The position numbers were made by a program, and so were the translations under genes. Shown here one piece after another: positions 15,293-22,712 of a stretch of DNA of 64,000 nt. The notes below the pieces were generated by a model. That model worked only from the letters and a program-made list of their open reading frames with translations, was not told where the DNA came from and did no database searches. How positions within the stretch are numbered: the stretch's first letter is position 1; every line of letters begins with the position of its first letter. The DNA is from Candidatus Hydrogenedentota bacterium. Its GTDB lineage: Bacteria > Hydrogenedentota > Hydrogenedentia > Hydrogenedentales > JAEUWI01. Location of the stretch: the NCBI GenBank assembly GCA_019637335.1, contig JAHBVV010000003.1, positions 62,001 to 126,000 of the forward strand, read 5' to 3'.

Positions 15293-15682
15293 TTACCGGG
15301 CGCTTCCGTCGGCGCTGGCTCCGCGCGAGAAGAGATAATTCACAACCACGATGAATAGTCCAAGCACATTAATGGTGGTTCCAGAGATGAGCGTCACAAG
15401 CACCGTATCCGAGAGCGTGAAGGCGGCGCAAAGCCCCTGCAGGATGATAACCACATAGATTGCGCCGAGCCAGACTGCGATCAATCGGTAGATCTTCCCC
15501 GCGTACTCTTTGCGTGCTTGTATATCCTGCCGGAAACTCTCGAGTTCCGCGAGCTCTCGCTGGGCGGCCAGATCGTAGGATGTGGCTTCGGCGCGTGCCA
15601 GCGGATCGTCCAGCGGCGGCGGGCTGAGTTTGCTGCCTATATTCTCCAACAGGTTTTCGGCATCGTCCATATCAGGCGGCAT
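15293..15682 (-). CDS. Small two-TM protein paired with the Panacea gene (candidate membrane toxin)
   Basis: A 129-residue protein: about 55 polar residues rich in Glu/Arg/Lys that may coil, then two membrane segments (about 67-88 IYRLIAVWLGAIYVVIILQG and about 92-118 VLVTLISGTTINVLGLFIVV), and a short tail. No enzyme motif is visible. Its start overlaps the end of the Panacea gene by 11 bases, the close coupling typical of toxin-antitoxin pairs. Membrane-acting proteins are among the known partners of Panacea antitoxins, so a toxin role is reasonable inference but unproven. A second possible start is the ATG at 15670. Confidence 0.6.
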   Translation of the reverse strand: MPPDMDDAENLLENIGSKLSPPPLDDPLARAEATSYDLAAQRELAELESFRQDIQARKEYAGKIYRLIAVWLGAIYVVIILQGLCAAFTLSDTVLVTLISGTTINVLGLFIVVVNYLFSRGASADGSAR

Positions 15683-16187
15683 CCTGAATTTGCGACTGGA
15701 AATGCTCTCGAATTTTATCGTCCGGTATTATGCAATGCGATGGGATTTGCCCCCGATGTTCCATCTCAATGTCCTTCCAGGGAGTACCGTCGCGGTGGCA
15801 GAGATTGGAGAGCTGAAGCGCGGTGTATCCGCCGTACACTTGCCAGATCCGCTCGATAAGGCGCTTGGCGAATTTGGCGCCGGCATCATCGGGCAATCGT
15901 GGAACGTCAATGGCGATCTTCCCACTGGAGCTTTGAATCGGTACGGCCGCCTCGCGCGCGATTCGCTCGTTCCCGAAGTGCTTAAAGGCTTCGTAGACCA
16001 GCGGTTGGACGGGACCATACCGCCAGGCTTGAACACCACCCCGAACGAGCGGTTTTCCGGTAATCGCGAGATGCCAGCCATGCGCGAAGTAGATGAGCTT
16101 CTGCATTTTCAGGTTGGACACGGTCTGATCAGATTCTCGATCTGCGATTTCGAGAAAGTAATTTGCAACAGCCAGCGGATCGTACAT
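15672..16187 (-). CDS. Panacea-domain (DUF4065/SocA-like) antitoxin-type protein
   Basis: ATG 16187 (ribosome site GAGG) gives 171 residues; a GTG at 16211 is an alternative. The protein carries the Panacea signature in order: VSNLKMQKLIYFAHGWHLA, TGKPLVRGGVQAWRYGPVQP, VYEAFKHFG, and a C-terminal WKDIEMEHRGQIPSHCIIPDDKIREHF. Panacea (DUF4065, GepA, SocA) is a promiscuous antitoxin domain that neutralises unrelated toxins by direct binding or by feeding them to proteases. The overlapping downstream two-TM gene is the probable partner. Confidence 0.88.
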   Translation of the reverse strand: MYDPLAVANYFLEIADRESDQTVSNLKMQKLIYFAHGWHLAITGKPLVRGGVQAWRYGPVQPLVYEAFKHFGNERIAREAAVPIQSSSGKIAIDVPRLPDDAGAKFAKRLIERIWQVYGGYTALQLSNLCHRDGTPWKDIEMEHRGQIPSHCIIPDDKIREHFQSQIQDAA

Positions 16188-16274
16188 GTTTCGTCGCCTC
16201 TTGTTCGTCACGCCGTCCCAGTGCGCAAGCTTCTATTATGCCCGGAAAAGCCGGTGAATTCTACAATCCCGGGG

Positions 16275-18209: not shown

Positions 18210-18968
18210 TCAGCCAAGGCCCGTCACATCCAGCCAGGCGCGCGCCATCAGCGCATGGCCCGCCATCGTGGGGTGGACGCCATCGCCGGCCCAGTACGCC
18301 GCGGGGGTTTCCTCCGACTGGGCCTCGTCGAACACCGTCTGGAACGGGACCCAGGCCGCCCCGGCGCGCTCCGCCGCCGCCCTGGCCACCGCGCGGCGCT
18401 CGTCAAACTCGGGCTGCCACGTGCCGTCGATGGCGCCGCAGGGGAGAATGAAGGGCTCGCAGATGACCAGGGCCGTATCCGGCAGCGCCTCGCGCGTCCG
18501 CGCCAGCAGCGCATTGAGGCCCGTTTCATAGGTCTTCACCGTGCCGTCGTACTTCCCGCTACGTACGTGCCACATGTCGTTCACGCCGATCAGAATGCTC
18601 AAGACAGACGGCTTCAGGTCGATTGTGTCCTGTTGCCACCGCGCATCCAGGTCTGGGACCTTGTTCCCGCTGATGCCGCGGTTGTAGCACAGAAGTTTCT
18701 TGTCCGGGTGCGCGCCAAGCAACGCGGACGCCAGCATCGCGGCATAGCCGCGCCCCAGCGCGTTCATATCATTCGGATTCGCGTTGTCCTTCGCGCGGCC
18801 GGCATCCGTGATGGAGTCGCCCTGGAAGAGTATGACGCCGTTCAGGCTCAGGGTAGCCTTCTCGGCCACGGCGTGGCCGGTCCGGCCGGCAAGAACGCCC
18901 GCGCCCGCGGCCAGGGCCGCCGCCTGAAACAGATTGCGGCGGGAGAGGGGAAGGGTAGATTGAATCAT
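18210..18968 (-). CDS. Exported SGNH/GDSL hydrolase with Tat signal
   Basis: A 252-residue protein with a twin-arginine signal (LSRRNLFQAAALAAGAGV). SGNH motifs follow: ILFQGDSITDAGR, GISGNKVPDL, ILIGVNDMWH and GDGVHPTMAGHAL, giving the Ser-Gly-Asn-His set. It probably deacetylates a carbohydrate outside the cytoplasm. It is first in the run with the CE12-type lipoprotein and the acyltransferase; the next gene's alternative TTG start would overlap its stop. Confidence 0.9.
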   Translation of the reverse strand: MIQSTLPLSRRNLFQAAALAAGAGVLAGRTGHAVAEKATLSLNGVILFQGDSITDAGRAKDNANPNDMNALGRGYAAMLASALLGAHPDKKLLCYNRGISGNKVPDLDARWQQDTIDLKPSVLSILIGVNDMWHVRSGKYDGTVKTYETGLNALLARTREALPDTALVICEPFILPCGAIDGTWQPEFDERRAVARAAAERAGAAWVPFQTVFDEAQSEETPAAYWAGDGVHPTMAGHALMARAWLDVTGLG

Positions 18969-19069
18969 CGGGAATTCTCCGTTCGAGTAATCGTCCGCGC
19001 CGGGCGCGCGCTTCTGTTGTAGTGTGAAGGGTGGGGGAGATTGAGAGACGGTGAACCGTTAATGCTCCG

Positions 19070-19326
19070 CAGCCATGGAGTTGCGTAGAGTGCCAGTTCC
19101 CAAAAGCACAGTCAAGAGCCACCGGGAGCAAGGCCGGGTTCAGCCGCTCCAGCGCGATACGCAGCCACGCCGAAAGGATAACCACCACTCGCGTCTCCCG
19201 GCCCAGCGCGCTCGCACCGTGGTCGAACTCCTGATAGGCGTTCAGCGTTTCCCAGCCCCGTTGACCCTCTAGGGCGATGGCGGACTGTTTCACCAGGGAG
19301 TCTTTACTGTAGCCGGTTCCGCTCAC
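19070..19326 (-). pseudogene. Truncated hsdR (type I restriction enzyme, N-terminal stump)
   Basis: From a GTG at 19326 that overlaps the stop of the DUF262 gene, the frame reads TGYSKDSLVKQSAIAL, then GWETLNAYQEFDHG, LGRETRVVVIL, LRIALERLNPALLP. This is the conserved N-terminus of HsdR nucleases (HSDR_N region). Similarity stops after about 70 codons; the remaining frame is unrelated and the SGNH gene follows. The large helicase and nuclease parts are gone. No hsdM or hsdS lies within the window, so the locus appears to have been cut down to its DUF262 component. Confidence 0.75.
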
Positions 19327-21443
19327 GATTCGTCCCCATTCCCCATTTGTCGTTCAAAGGCCTGCCGAATCAGCCCCATGACATAGGGTAGTTCTTCCAA
19401 GCTAGAAAAGCCGACCTCCACATCGCCATTACCCCATCGGCCGACATTGGTAACATCTTTACAAAGGCCACGAGGATCATAAATGTCAGCGAAGGCCATG
19501 TTCAGACTCAAACGCAAGCGCTTTGCCTGTGGAACCACATCCACGAAATTTGTCTCGGCCTTATAGGCAACATAGAGTTTCAGAATCTCTTCGGATACTG
19601 CAGGGTCAAGTGAAAGTACCTCTTCCCGTAATGCCTCAAACAAATCTTTACTCTTGCCTTGGATCAGGTGGGGATGACTCTCCAGCGTATAGCCCGTAGA
19701 TGCTTCTTTTTTGGGTTGATACGCTTCTAGAATTTCTGGGTCCAACGTGGGCATATGCCAGACTGTCACGGCAGTCTTGCTCAGACGTTTCGCGCGCTTC
19801 TTGATCTCTTCCTCATTCCAAGTTTCACACGTGCCGAGGCCCTGGTTCAGGTGTAGTGGACTCTCCTTGAACCCTCCCGCCATATCACGCTTCTCCGGGA
19901 AGCTACGGTCGCTATACTCCGAATTATACCCCGTCAAAGTCAGGTTTCCCAACGTGTGCAGGTAGGTCTCATGGACGCTCTTCCACTCCGGTCCCAATGC
20001 CTCACGCCACGCCCTGGATAACTTCTCGTTCTGCGGCATGATGTGTTCAATGGTGTATTCGTCGACTTCGACTCGCTCTTTACGACCGTGGTTTTCCAGC
20101 CGCCGCAACCAGTAACTTCGGCGGGGAAAGTTGTATAGGTCCCGTGTACATAACTCTCTTTTGAACACCTCGTCGCCAGGGAATCCCCGGTAAGATGGCA
20201 TCAGCAGGAAGTGGGCTTGTATGCTCTCCAAATAGCGGTCTTTCTTCAACGCCTTGGCGAACGTCGCAAAGGTCTTGTTCAGCGAGTTGGTTGGAATGCC
20301 ACAAATGGCGCGGCGGAACACGTAGGATTCGATGAGCCGAACCGCTGTCAGAAAGTCTGAGCGCGCAAGGATACCCTTCGCGTAATCATCATAGAGTTCC
20401 AAAAGGAACGGATAGGTGACGTTCGCCTTCATCTCTCGGAGATCGTGAAAGGCGCGTTGGAGTTCCGAGTCCGGTTCGGCGCCTAATGCCATCGCGCAGA
20501 AGTAGCGCGAGTAGTCCCGAATGTCGGCCACAAGTGCTTCTACACCAGACTTGGCTACTTCGGGCATTTGCGCGTGGTTCTTAAACGACTCGTAGACCGC
20601 GCCTAATTTCGGAATATCGCCCGTCCCGGTCTTAACCGTCAGGTAATAGCGCATGAAGGCGTCAAAATGGTCACCGTAGCTCTCTTGCCCGAATTCCAGC
20701 TCCATCGGCCGCCAGTAATCCTGATATAGCCGGGTTTGGAGTTCTGGCTCCAGCCCCATCAAAATGTAGTTTCGTATCAGGTCCGCTTGGGTAAGTTCCC
20801 GTCCCGTGGAATTCATGCTTTCAAAAATCAACTGGGGATTGTCCTGATCCCGGCTTAGGGCGATGTCCACCACAATTAACTTCGCGATGCCCTTGCACAG
20901 CGCAGTCAGATTGCCTTTCTGGCTGGCGATCCAGGTCTTGAAGAATTCATAGTTTTCCAAAACGCGCCGTGAATACTCCTTGGGCAATTCCTTCCCTGCG
21001 ACAAGGGCAATCAGCGAATCTCGGTCGGTTTGCGACAGGATGAGCTTGTAGTGCCGCTCACCTTCTTCTTCTGGATTGATGAGGTAGTAGTTGCGTAGTT
21101 TGCGGGGCGAAAAGCCATCAACCGGCTCCCGCTCGCCATCCGGCAGCGCATCCAAAGCCTCGGCCAACGCGGCGACTAGAAGTGAAAGCGTCGTAAGCCT
21201 TTGCTGTCCGTCAATGACGAGTAAGGGCGTTTGGCTGGTTACCTGATACAGGCCCTTTTCGATGTAGACAATGGATCCGACAAAGTGGGCCGTGACTGCA
21301 TCGTTTTCACCCGTGCGCAATATGTCTTTCCAAAGCTGTTGGCACTCCCGCTCGGTCCAGGAATACGTGCGCTGATAAATCGGGATGACAAACTGTGGCG
21401 ACTTCTTAATAAACTCCAAGAATTTCGCTTCGGTGGCTTTCAA
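19323..21443 (-). CDS. GmrSD-like DUF262-DUF1524(-DUF5655) restriction-type protein
   Basis: A 706-residue protein from a TTG start with a strong GGAGGGG ribosome site. Residues about 15-230 are DUF262: IPIYQRTYSWTERECQQLW, then DGQQRLTTLSLL at 78-89, the NTP-binding ParB-like motif. Around 450-510 is DUF1524 with the His-Me nuclease motif YTIEHIMPQN and HTLGNLTLTGYN. The last 100 residues resemble DUF5655. GmrSD-type proteins are NTP-dependent type IV restriction enzymes against modified phage DNA; related proteins also accompany type I R-M and BREX loci. Here it directly precedes, with GTGA overlap, the stump of hsdR, so it was once part of a type I operon. GC is lower than that of neighbours. 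Confidence 0.9.
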   Translation of the reverse strand: MKATEAKFLEFIKKSPQFVIPIYQRTYSWTERECQQLWKDILRTGENDAVTAHFVGSIVYIEKGLYQVTSQTPLLVIDGQQRLTTLSLLVAALAEALDALPDGEREPVDGFSPRKLRNYYLINPEEEGERHYKLILSQTDRDSLIALVAGKELPKEYSRRVLENYEFFKTWIASQKGNLTALCKGIAKLIVVDIALSRDQDNPQLIFESMNSTGRELTQADLIRNYILMGLEPELQTRLYQDYWRPMELEFGQESYGDHFDAFMRYYLTVKTGTGDIPKLGAVYESFKNHAQMPEVAKSGVEALVADIRDYSRYFCAMALGAEPDSELQRAFHDLREMKANVTYPFLLELYDDYAKGILARSDFLTAVRLIESYVFRRAICGIPTNSLNKTFATFAKALKKDRYLESIQAHFLLMPSYRGFPGDEVFKRELCTRDLYNFPRRSYWLRRLENHGRKERVEVDEYTIEHIMPQNEKLSRAWREALGPEWKSVHETYLHTLGNLTLTGYNSEYSDRSFPEKRDMAGGFKESPLHLNQGLGTCETWNEEEIKKRAKRLSKTAVTVWHMPTLDPEILEAYQPKKEASTGYTLESHPHLIQGKSKDLFEALREEVLSLDPAVSEEILKLYVAYKAETNFVDVVPQAKRLRLSLNMAFADIYDPRGLCKDVTNVGRWGNGDVEVGFSSLEELPYVMGLIRQAFERQMGNGDES

Positions 21444-21508
21444 TGGGCTACCCCTCCATTTTCCGGTCCAATAAACAACGGTGGTCTGGTGAACGGTCCG
21501 AGCGCTCG

Positions 21509-21677
21509 TTAGATCTTCTCGGAGGCTTCACCAATCTCCTCCCACGACAGAAGCGTCTCATGGCTCCGGCCAAGAGTCAACCGCTCCATGCCATGGCGAG
21601 CGCTTTTGGAGTGCCGCCTGAACGGTGGACTTACAGTAGTTGTGGATCGTTAGGAACTCGGAAATCGAAAAATCCAT
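21509..21677 (-). other. Possible small frameshifted gene upstream of the DUF262 gene
   Basis: From ATG 21677 one frame reads MDFSISEFLTIHNYCKSTVQ and continues to a stop at 21558. A second frame, overlapping at the end, continues sensibly as SHETLLSWEEIGEASEKI to a stop at 21509. Together they would encode about 57 residues if one frameshift is repaired. The protein is not recognised. It may be a broken small gene of the restriction locus or chance. The rest of 21444-21761 shows nothing further. Confidence 0.3.
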
Positions 21678-21761
21678 AGTCCAACATATGATGGATAACT
21701 CGCCCTTGGCGCCCGTACCTATGCTAGTCAGCAGGAAGGAAACGATCGGCCACGGGCGCCG

Positions 21762-22712
21762 TCAGCGCTCCGCAGCCATGGTGTTTTTCAGCGTTCCGAT
21801 CTGTTCGATGGTCGCCTCGACGACATCGCCGGGGCGCAGCATTTTGCCCGTGCTCAGGCCGATGCCCTCGCAGGTGCCCGTGGCGATAATATCGCCCGGC
21901 TCGAGGGTGATCCAGCGGGAGATGAATTCAATGACGGCGGCCACGGGGAAGATCATCCGGTTTGTGTTGCTGTGCTGGCGTTCCTCGCCGTTTACCGTCA
22001 GGCGCAGGTCCAGCTGCTGCGGGTCGGTGATGGTGGCCGAGGACGTAACCGCCGGCCCAACGGGGCAGAAGCCGTCGTGCCACTTGCCGTGCATCCAGTC
22101 GAAGAAGGCGTCGCGCGGGCGTTCTTTTCGGTCTGGATTCGGGCGGTATTTGCGATCGGATATATCATTGAGCACCGTGTAGCCCGCCACGTAGTCGAGC
22201 GCTTCGGCCTCGGAAACGCCCCTGGCCGTCCTGCCCATGACCACGCACAGCTCGCATTCGTAGTCGATCCAGTCGGGATTGATCCGGGGAATGATGACAT
22301 CCGCATCCGGGTCGTTGAGCGCCGTGCGCGGCTTCATGAAGATGTAGGGAAAGGTTTCCTTCCGCTCCACGGCGATTTCGCCGCCTTCCTGGATGTGCAG
22401 GGCGTAGTTGCCCGCGAGAAGCAGGATCTTTCCGGGATCCGGCAGCGGGCGGAGCAACCGTACCGAGTCCGCGCCGATGGTAAGCTGGGCCAGGCTGTCG
22501 CCCGCGCCCGCGAGCCATGCGGAAAGGTCGGCCGCCGCGCTGGCGTACGCGCCGTGCGGCAGCAGCGCCAGCAGATCGTCGTGCGGCAGCGAGATCGTCT
22601 TGTCCTGGCTCTGGTTGTGGACGTCGATGGCGGCCTGGATCGGCACAATGCCGCCGTCGTGATAAAAGCCCAGTTCGGGCTGGTCGTTGCGTTGAAACCG
22701 GCAGATGCGCAC
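21762..22712 (-). CDS. Fumarylacetoacetate hydrolase-family protein
   Basis: A 316-residue cytoplasmic enzyme. The FAH core is clear: NYALHIQEGGE, then MKPRTALNDPDADV, IDYECELCVVMGRTARGVS (Glu-x-Glu metal ligands) and YTVLNDISDR (Asp ligand), ending in GDIIATGTCEGIGL. Family members cleave carbon-carbon bonds of acylpyruvates or act as isomerases and decarboxylases in aromatic or sugar-acid catabolism. It starts 12 bases after the heparinase-like gene, so it may process unsaturated or oxidised sugar acids released by that lyase; that link is inference. Confidence 0.9.
   Translation of the reverse strand: MRICRFQRNDQPELGFYHDGGIVPIQAAIDVHNQSQDKTISLPHDDLLALLPHGAYASAAADLSAWLAGAGDSLAQLTIGADSVRLLRPLPDPGKILLLAGNYALHIQEGGEIAVERKETFPYIFMKPRTALNDPDADVIIPRINPDWIDYECELCVVMGRTARGVSEAEALDYVAGYTVLNDISDRKYRPNPDRKERPRDAFFDWMHGKWHDGFCPVGPAVTSSATITDPQQLDLRLTVNGEERQHSNTNRMIFPVAAVIEFISRWITLEPGDIIATGTCEGIGLSTGKMLRPGDVVEATIEQIGTLKNTMAAER

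Follow-up and report, generated by a model that had tools for sequence, protein, structure and literature searches.

Type IV restriction enzymes of the GmrSD type, such as Eco94GmrSD and BrxU, combine a DUF262 domain that carries the motif DGQQR with a DUF1524 domain that carries the motif EHxxPQ. According to the available portions of three reports, DUF262 is an NTP-dependent sensor of modification and DUF1524 is the nuclease in such enzymes (PMC11411939, PMC12707154, PMC11662687), and BrxU acts independently of BREX (PMC12707154, same portion). GmrSD homologues located in type I restriction-modification (R-M) loci have already been published, as stated in the excerpt of PMC4619093, where RloF of Campylobacter jejuni is encoded by a DUF262 gene between hsdS and hsdR. 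TgvAB, from the type I R-M cluster of V. cholerae VPI-2, is a GmrSD-type system embedded in such a locus; in the accessible text of PMC11411939, its protection is independent of HsdR, and both TgvA and TgvB are required. DndI and SspE, which are the closest solved structures to the protein described below, are coupled to host phosphorothioation genes. In the available parts of the reports, DndI cuts unmodified DNA and is toxic where cells lack its modification (PMC11411939, PMC12707154, PMC11662687).

Here, we analysed a gene for a DUF262-DUF1524-DUF5655 protein of 706 amino acids in a 64,000-nucleotide stretch of DNA, the window, from a Candidatus Hydrogenedentota bacterium. The protein is like Eco94GmrSD and BrxU in the two motifs, but it has an extra C-terminal DUF5655 domain, and its relatives are often found within type I R-M operons. 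TgvAB, as described in the text cited above, is made of two proteins, whereas here a single protein unites the two domains and the R-M operon no longer exists. RloF can be likened to it by description only, and the R-M locus, which the excerpt places in C. jejuni, has been lost here. The two-domain plan is the same as that of DndI and SspE; unlike these, the window protein has no DndC-family match in its genome, in a search that gave none over the cut-off in the control genomes either. The window gene is not a new system; it belongs to a known family whose members are often embedded in R-M operons, and it is one that has been orphaned. The novel elements are boundaries that can still be read, the empty site and a parallel case in marine bacteria. 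Our preferred reading, to which we give a probability of roughly 0.57, is that this is an R-M island broken at the end of a fumarylacetoacetate hydrolase-family (FAH) gene, and that the product of the surviving GmrSD-type gene would work by itself as a modification-dependent nuclease of type IV.

Remains and edges of the R-M island

The stop codon of the DUF262 gene and the GTG start of a short downstream frame overlap as GTGA, just as the sequence-only reading of this DNA had reported, and that reading was also right in taking the frame for the stump of an hsdR gene. Over its first ~66-72 residues, the stump matches the hsdR located immediately after the DUF262 gene in three relatives (L002, L004 and L020). 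It also matches 11 plasmid records, and each of the 11 is annotated there as 'type I restriction endonuclease subunit R'. In the phylum set, the stump matched 8 of 68 genomes, its own included, and best of all the full-length HsdR of a genome of the same order (L145). This HsdR has HSDR_N, SWI2_SNF2 and C-terminal HsdR domains, and the stump is 63% identical to it over residues 2-66. The hsdR homology stops near position 19107. With ~73 codons left, the nuclease-helicase is gone, as had been claimed.

The absence of hsdM and hsdS, noted earlier for the window, holds beyond it. The genome's own assembly (7,157,908 bp in 55 contigs, 95.97% complete) gave no match at E ≤ 0.001 to N6_Mtase, HSDR_N or Methylase_S, while the same searches matched 13, 9 and 9 of 14 control genomes, respectively. 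Both hsdM and the rest of hsdR were sought elsewhere in the genome, as the findings that would speak against a broken locus, and neither was found. A type I R-M system, with HsdM, HsdS and HsdR all present, was accordingly not detected in this genome, where only the stump of hsdR was found.

The boundaries of the island had been overlooked. An extra copy of the FAH 3' end is fused to the cut hsdR, and it begins immediately after the end of the hsdR homology. The previously proposed extent of the locus, 19070-21443, takes in both the gene and the stump, but position 19070 already lies inside this second FAH copy. The two 39-mer repeats are identical at 29 of 39 positions, and the highest agreement of any other 39-mer in the window is 24 of 39 on the plus strand and 23 of 39 on the minus strand. 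The exact 15-bp core of the repeats, CCATGGCTGCGGAGC, has only two exact occurrences in the 7.16-Mb genome. Seven codons differ between the copies, stop included, of which four differ synonymously (the stop among them) and two conservatively. Since the differences are mostly synonymous or conservative, they suggest that both FAH ends belonged to functional genes while they diverged, and that they were joined only later.

FAH orthologues are present in three congeners (G001, G002 and G003), and in 3 of 3 the FAH gene and then the GDSL-hydrolase gene are directly adjacent, which constitutes the empty site. Because the two genes are adjacent in all three congeners examined, the stretch between them is, judged by gene order, an insertion in this genome. 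On both flanks, the gene order of the congeners is retained, and the whole stretch lies in one long contig, which speaks against an artificial join in the assembly. The island thus has two features of an integrative element: direct repeats at its borders, derived from the 3' end of a gene, and an empty site in relatives. No integrase or transposase was found among the ORFs between the repeats (19056-21797), where only the DUF262 gene and the stump are present, and the two Phage_integrase matches in the genome are both outside the island. With no such gene between the repeats, the island may have arrived by either site-specific or homologous recombination.

In the gap between the FAH gene and the DUF262 gene, no frame matched anything in the loci of the best 80 of 184 relatives better than E 0.7, and thus no hsdS remnant was recognised. 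When the gap DNA was compared with 60 genomes, the best match, self aside, was unconvincing, with an E of 0.003 over 28 bases. Frame pieces in 21444-21679 resemble, by eye, a broken small helix-turn-helix gene, although the databases gave no match. A degraded gene of this kind in two frames (21677-21561 and 21604-21512), which we had presumed to be excisionase-like, was dropped as a candidate; its pieces had no Pfam or PHROGs match, and the joined frames had neither a Pfam nor a plasmid match.

Of the neighbouring ORFs, that of 899 aa is provisionally labelled a heparinase and that of 373 aa an acyltransferase; the latter had no Pfam match. A SocA/Panacea antitoxin-like gene (PF13274; 15672-16211, minus strand; GC3 0.628) overlaps a 129-aa ORF with hydrophobic stretches. 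The pair spans 15293-16211 on the minus strand and sits between the 373-aa ORF and a DAO gene, which are adjacent in G003. It has the appearance of another insertion into this gene cluster, possibly a toxin-antitoxin pair.

Table 1 Features of the island and of its insertion site (positions in the window).
Feature	Position	Strand	Remarks
GDSL-type hydrolase gene	18210..18968	-	PF13472; directly downstream of FAH in congeners
Right-hand repeat, extra FAH 3' end (GTLRNSMAAEH*)	19056..19094	-	Fused to cut hsdR; 29/39 identity
15-bp core CCATGGCTGCGGAGC, right copy	19064..19078	-	Genome-wide exact search
hsdR stump, first ~73 codons of type I R-M HsdR	19107..19326	-	Overlaps DUF262 gene by GTGA
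GmrSD_N (DUF262)-GmrSD_C (DUF1524)-DUF5655 gene, intact, 706 aa	19323..21443	-	TTG start; domains from Pfam
Gap from FAH stop to DUF262 start	21444..21761	-	318 bp; GC 0.557; no recognisable hsdS remnant
Shine-Dalgarno-like GGAGGGG	21451..21457	-	7 nt upstream of TTG start; read from sequence
Left-hand repeat, 3' end of intact FAH gene (GTLKNTMAAER*)	21759..21797	-	39-mer comparison
FAH gene, intact, host of insertion point	21762..22712	-	PF01557, E 4.8e-61
15-bp core CCATGGCTGCGGAGC, left copy	21767..21781	-	Genome-wide exact search

Domains and predicted fold of the DUF262 protein

The DUF262 gene is intact over 2.1 kb, as had been observed, and its product matches three Pfam domains over the cut-off, PF03235 (E 7.7e-37), PF07510 (E 1.9e-25) and PF18899 (E 2.8e-14). 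The DUF262 domain keeps the motifs YQR [23-25], DGQQR [78-82] and FESMN [207-211], and the DUF1524 domain keeps EHIMPQ [466-471] and LGNL [498-501]. When aligned with relatives, residues E466, H467, N500, N507 and K518 of the DUF1524 domain are all conserved, and all the tested motif residues that are thought to be catalytic are retained. The protein has the characteristics of a GmrSD-type enzyme in both domains, with (I/V)DGQQR, QR and FxxxN motifs in DUF262 and with the His-Me finger motifs EHxxPQ, LGNLxL and F..K[KR]. Its best PADLOC match is 'Orf5' (E 8.7e-194). The GC3 of the gene is 0.631, compared with 0.838-0.85 in the FAH gene, two GDSL genes and the 899-aa ORF.

The AlphaFold model of the protein has a mean pLDDT of 75.2 and is weak in the N-terminal DUF262 core. 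Among solved structures, it is matched by DndI (Z 22.6), SspE (Z 20.8) and BrxU (Z 14.5 over 305 residues), well above the other rows. The predicted fold is that of the GmrSD type, with Z values of 13.9-22.6 to these three proteins, where the N-terminal part of the model has low confidence. Only two DndI chains were matched by Foldseek below E 0.001. By phmmer, DndI is again the best solved relative (E 5.1e-13), and BrxU, absent among the phmmer matches, was matched by fold only. DUF5655 has a weak structural match to the DNA-binding domain of T4 MotA (Z 4.5, 83 residues); a limited literature search found no account of this domain.

That DndI is the best solved relative both by sequence and by fold would fit a phosphorothioate-sensing nuclease of the DndI/SspE kind. 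Moreover, the phosphorothioate-sensing P-x-Y-Q patch of DndI (P23, Y25 and Q26) aligns with P21, Y23 and Q24 of the window protein. However, this patch is near-universal in the relatives, members of type I R-M operons included, and so has no discriminating power. With no DndC-family match in the genome either, for what the weak control allows, we consider a protein of this kind very improbable.

The genome has two more GmrSD_N (DUF262) genes, C16:89177-90868 (~571 aa) and C4:317062-317508 (~372 aa) (loci L089, L142 and L144). The former has one TGA inside the matched range. Either of them could supply the partner of a two-protein system, given that TgvA and TgvB are both needed in the portion of PMC11411939 available. 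On the other hand, neither gene shares a contig with the window gene, whose product combines DUF262 and DUF1524 by itself, and solo copies are found in unrelated hosts. A partner encoded elsewhere in the genome is improbable, although the window protein may still require one, as TgvB needs TgvA.

Embedded, orphaned and solo relatives

To place the gene among its relatives, the best 80 of 184 loci were kept, and hsd genes were labelled by profiles from 12 seeds, in 12 of 12 of which Pfam confirmed HsdM, HsdS or HsdR domains. In 55 of these 80 loci, one or more hsd genes were labelled within 6 kb; the remainder include many short contigs. When the count is confined to loci with 6 kb or more on each side, of which there are 39, 31 have an hsd gene within 6 kb and 8 have none. 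Seventeen of the 39 have the full set of hsdM, hsdS and hsdR, and another 14 have one or two of the three. The tree, built from 82 proteins, puts the window protein together with those of L001, L002, L003 and L004 with a support of 1.0. The closest relatives with context, L002 and L004, have the order hsdM-hsdS-DUF262, then hsdR, which bears out the proposal that the stump and the DUF262 gene come from one broken operon. In L001, the hsd genes are upstream, apart from the DUF262 gene, and in L003, which has only 738 bases upstream, no hsd genes are shown.

A Planktothrix plasmid has a solo copy outside an R-M operon. In Sulfitobacter, another solo copy is beside a TrlF gene, and an hsd operon is nearby on the opposite strand. 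TrlF and DUF262 may form a recurring pair. The DUF262 gene of L131 adjoins an annotated TrlF gene and a recombinase. In L057 and L055 (6687-9599), a ~970-aa protein is encoded directly upstream of an hsdR stump and the DUF262 gene, and its start resembles, by eye, the AAA-like ATPases of the TrlF family.

A parallel orphan, which arose by a second, independent truncation, is found in the marine gammaproteobacteria Idiomarina, Marinobacter and Pseudidiomarina (L055, L057 and L060), where hsdR is cut to its last 119 residues and the DUF262 gene is intact. Their relatives L042, L049 and L051 have a whole hsdR at that place. Because a single breakpoint is common to all three orphans, these loci count as one truncation event, not three. 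Between the DUF262 genes of L055 and L057, dN is 0.011 and dS is 0.129, and the ratio of 0.085 suggests that purifying selection on the gene continues without R-M neighbours. Recombination of the island could blur this estimate and hence weakens the argument.

Compared with 81 full-length proteins, the window protein is altered in 2 of 166 otherwise invariant columns (V340A and E426V), and in 6 of 298 near-invariant columns (rank 16 of 82; median 4). Its terminal branch in the tree is 0.21, against a median of 0.086 (rank 14 of 82), and its root-to-tip rank is 56 of 82. By these measures, the protein is not clearly fast-evolving. Nevertheless, it may be in slow decay, given a terminal branch that exceeds the median and a rank of 16 of 82 for near-invariant changes.

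The gene could instead be without function, a leftover from an R-M island whose breakage is so recent that decay has not yet set in. Its start codon is TTG, where 6 of 6 relatives compared have ATG, and no sigma-70-like promoter was found upstream of it on the minus strand. The above-median terminal branch points the same way. The stump, too, is open and not clearly decayed, with changes in 3 of 16 conserved columns, a number that several intact HsdR proteins equal. As the stump is still open and no outlier, the truncation may be so young that nothing can be read from the retention of the DUF262 gene. A leftover sits less well with 706 codons that contain no stop, with the intactness of all the tested catalytic motifs and with the root-to-tip rank. 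Furthermore, the dN/dS of the stump against L145 is 0.34 and those of two control HsdR pairs are ~0.06 and ~0.18; over only 66 codons, this suggests, if faintly, drift in the stump and none in the DUF262 gene. On balance, a dead remnant seems unlikely. The earlier suggestion that selection kept the gene gains indirect support from the intact active-site positions, from a rate of change that is not clearly fast and from the dN/dS of the parallel orphan, although this genome has no close relative that isolates the period after the truncation.

Proposed history and action of the orphaned gene

In our preferred reading of a broken island with an active survivor, a larger type I R-M island, its genes arranged as hsdM-hsdS-DUF262-hsdR, would have come to the 3' end of the FAH gene, where two divergent FAH-end copies now flank it. 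Subsequent losses would have taken hsdM and hsdS from one end and, from the other, hsdR beyond its first 73 codons. The right-hand deletion ended at the FAH repeat, as its end state indicates. From what is known of the family, the N-terminal DUF262 domain would bind and hydrolyse NTP and sense modified DNA, the C-terminal His-Me finger domain (DUF1524) would cut or nick that DNA, and DUF5655 may help DNA binding.

Since no HsdM, HsdS or DndC was found, an enzyme that depends on such a mark should be harmful or inactive here. The protein cannot use those marks to recognise self, and for this reason the cutting of modified rather than unmodified DNA is favoured, presumably as an attack on modified invader DNA. 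An intact orphan would be easier to explain as an attacker of modified DNA, though other, unseen modification systems may be present.

Tentatively, the DUF262-DUF1524-DUF5655 gene might be a defence module in its own right, carried by type I R-M operons and persisting time and again after these are lost, a possibility we hold with some doubt. Such a module would need no self-methylation, because modified DNA is its target, and so, unlike HsdR, it would safely survive the loss of HsdM. If this is true, orphan GmrSD modules would be common in nature and orphan hsdR genes rare.

The locus is a case from nature, with defined limits, in which a type IV-like enzyme stands alone after the loss of its R-M operon, with the scar still readable. 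Together with the marine case, it makes the independence of R-M-embedded GmrSD genes directly testable, and a comparison, within one protein clade, of members that are embedded, orphaned or solo offers a route to that question.
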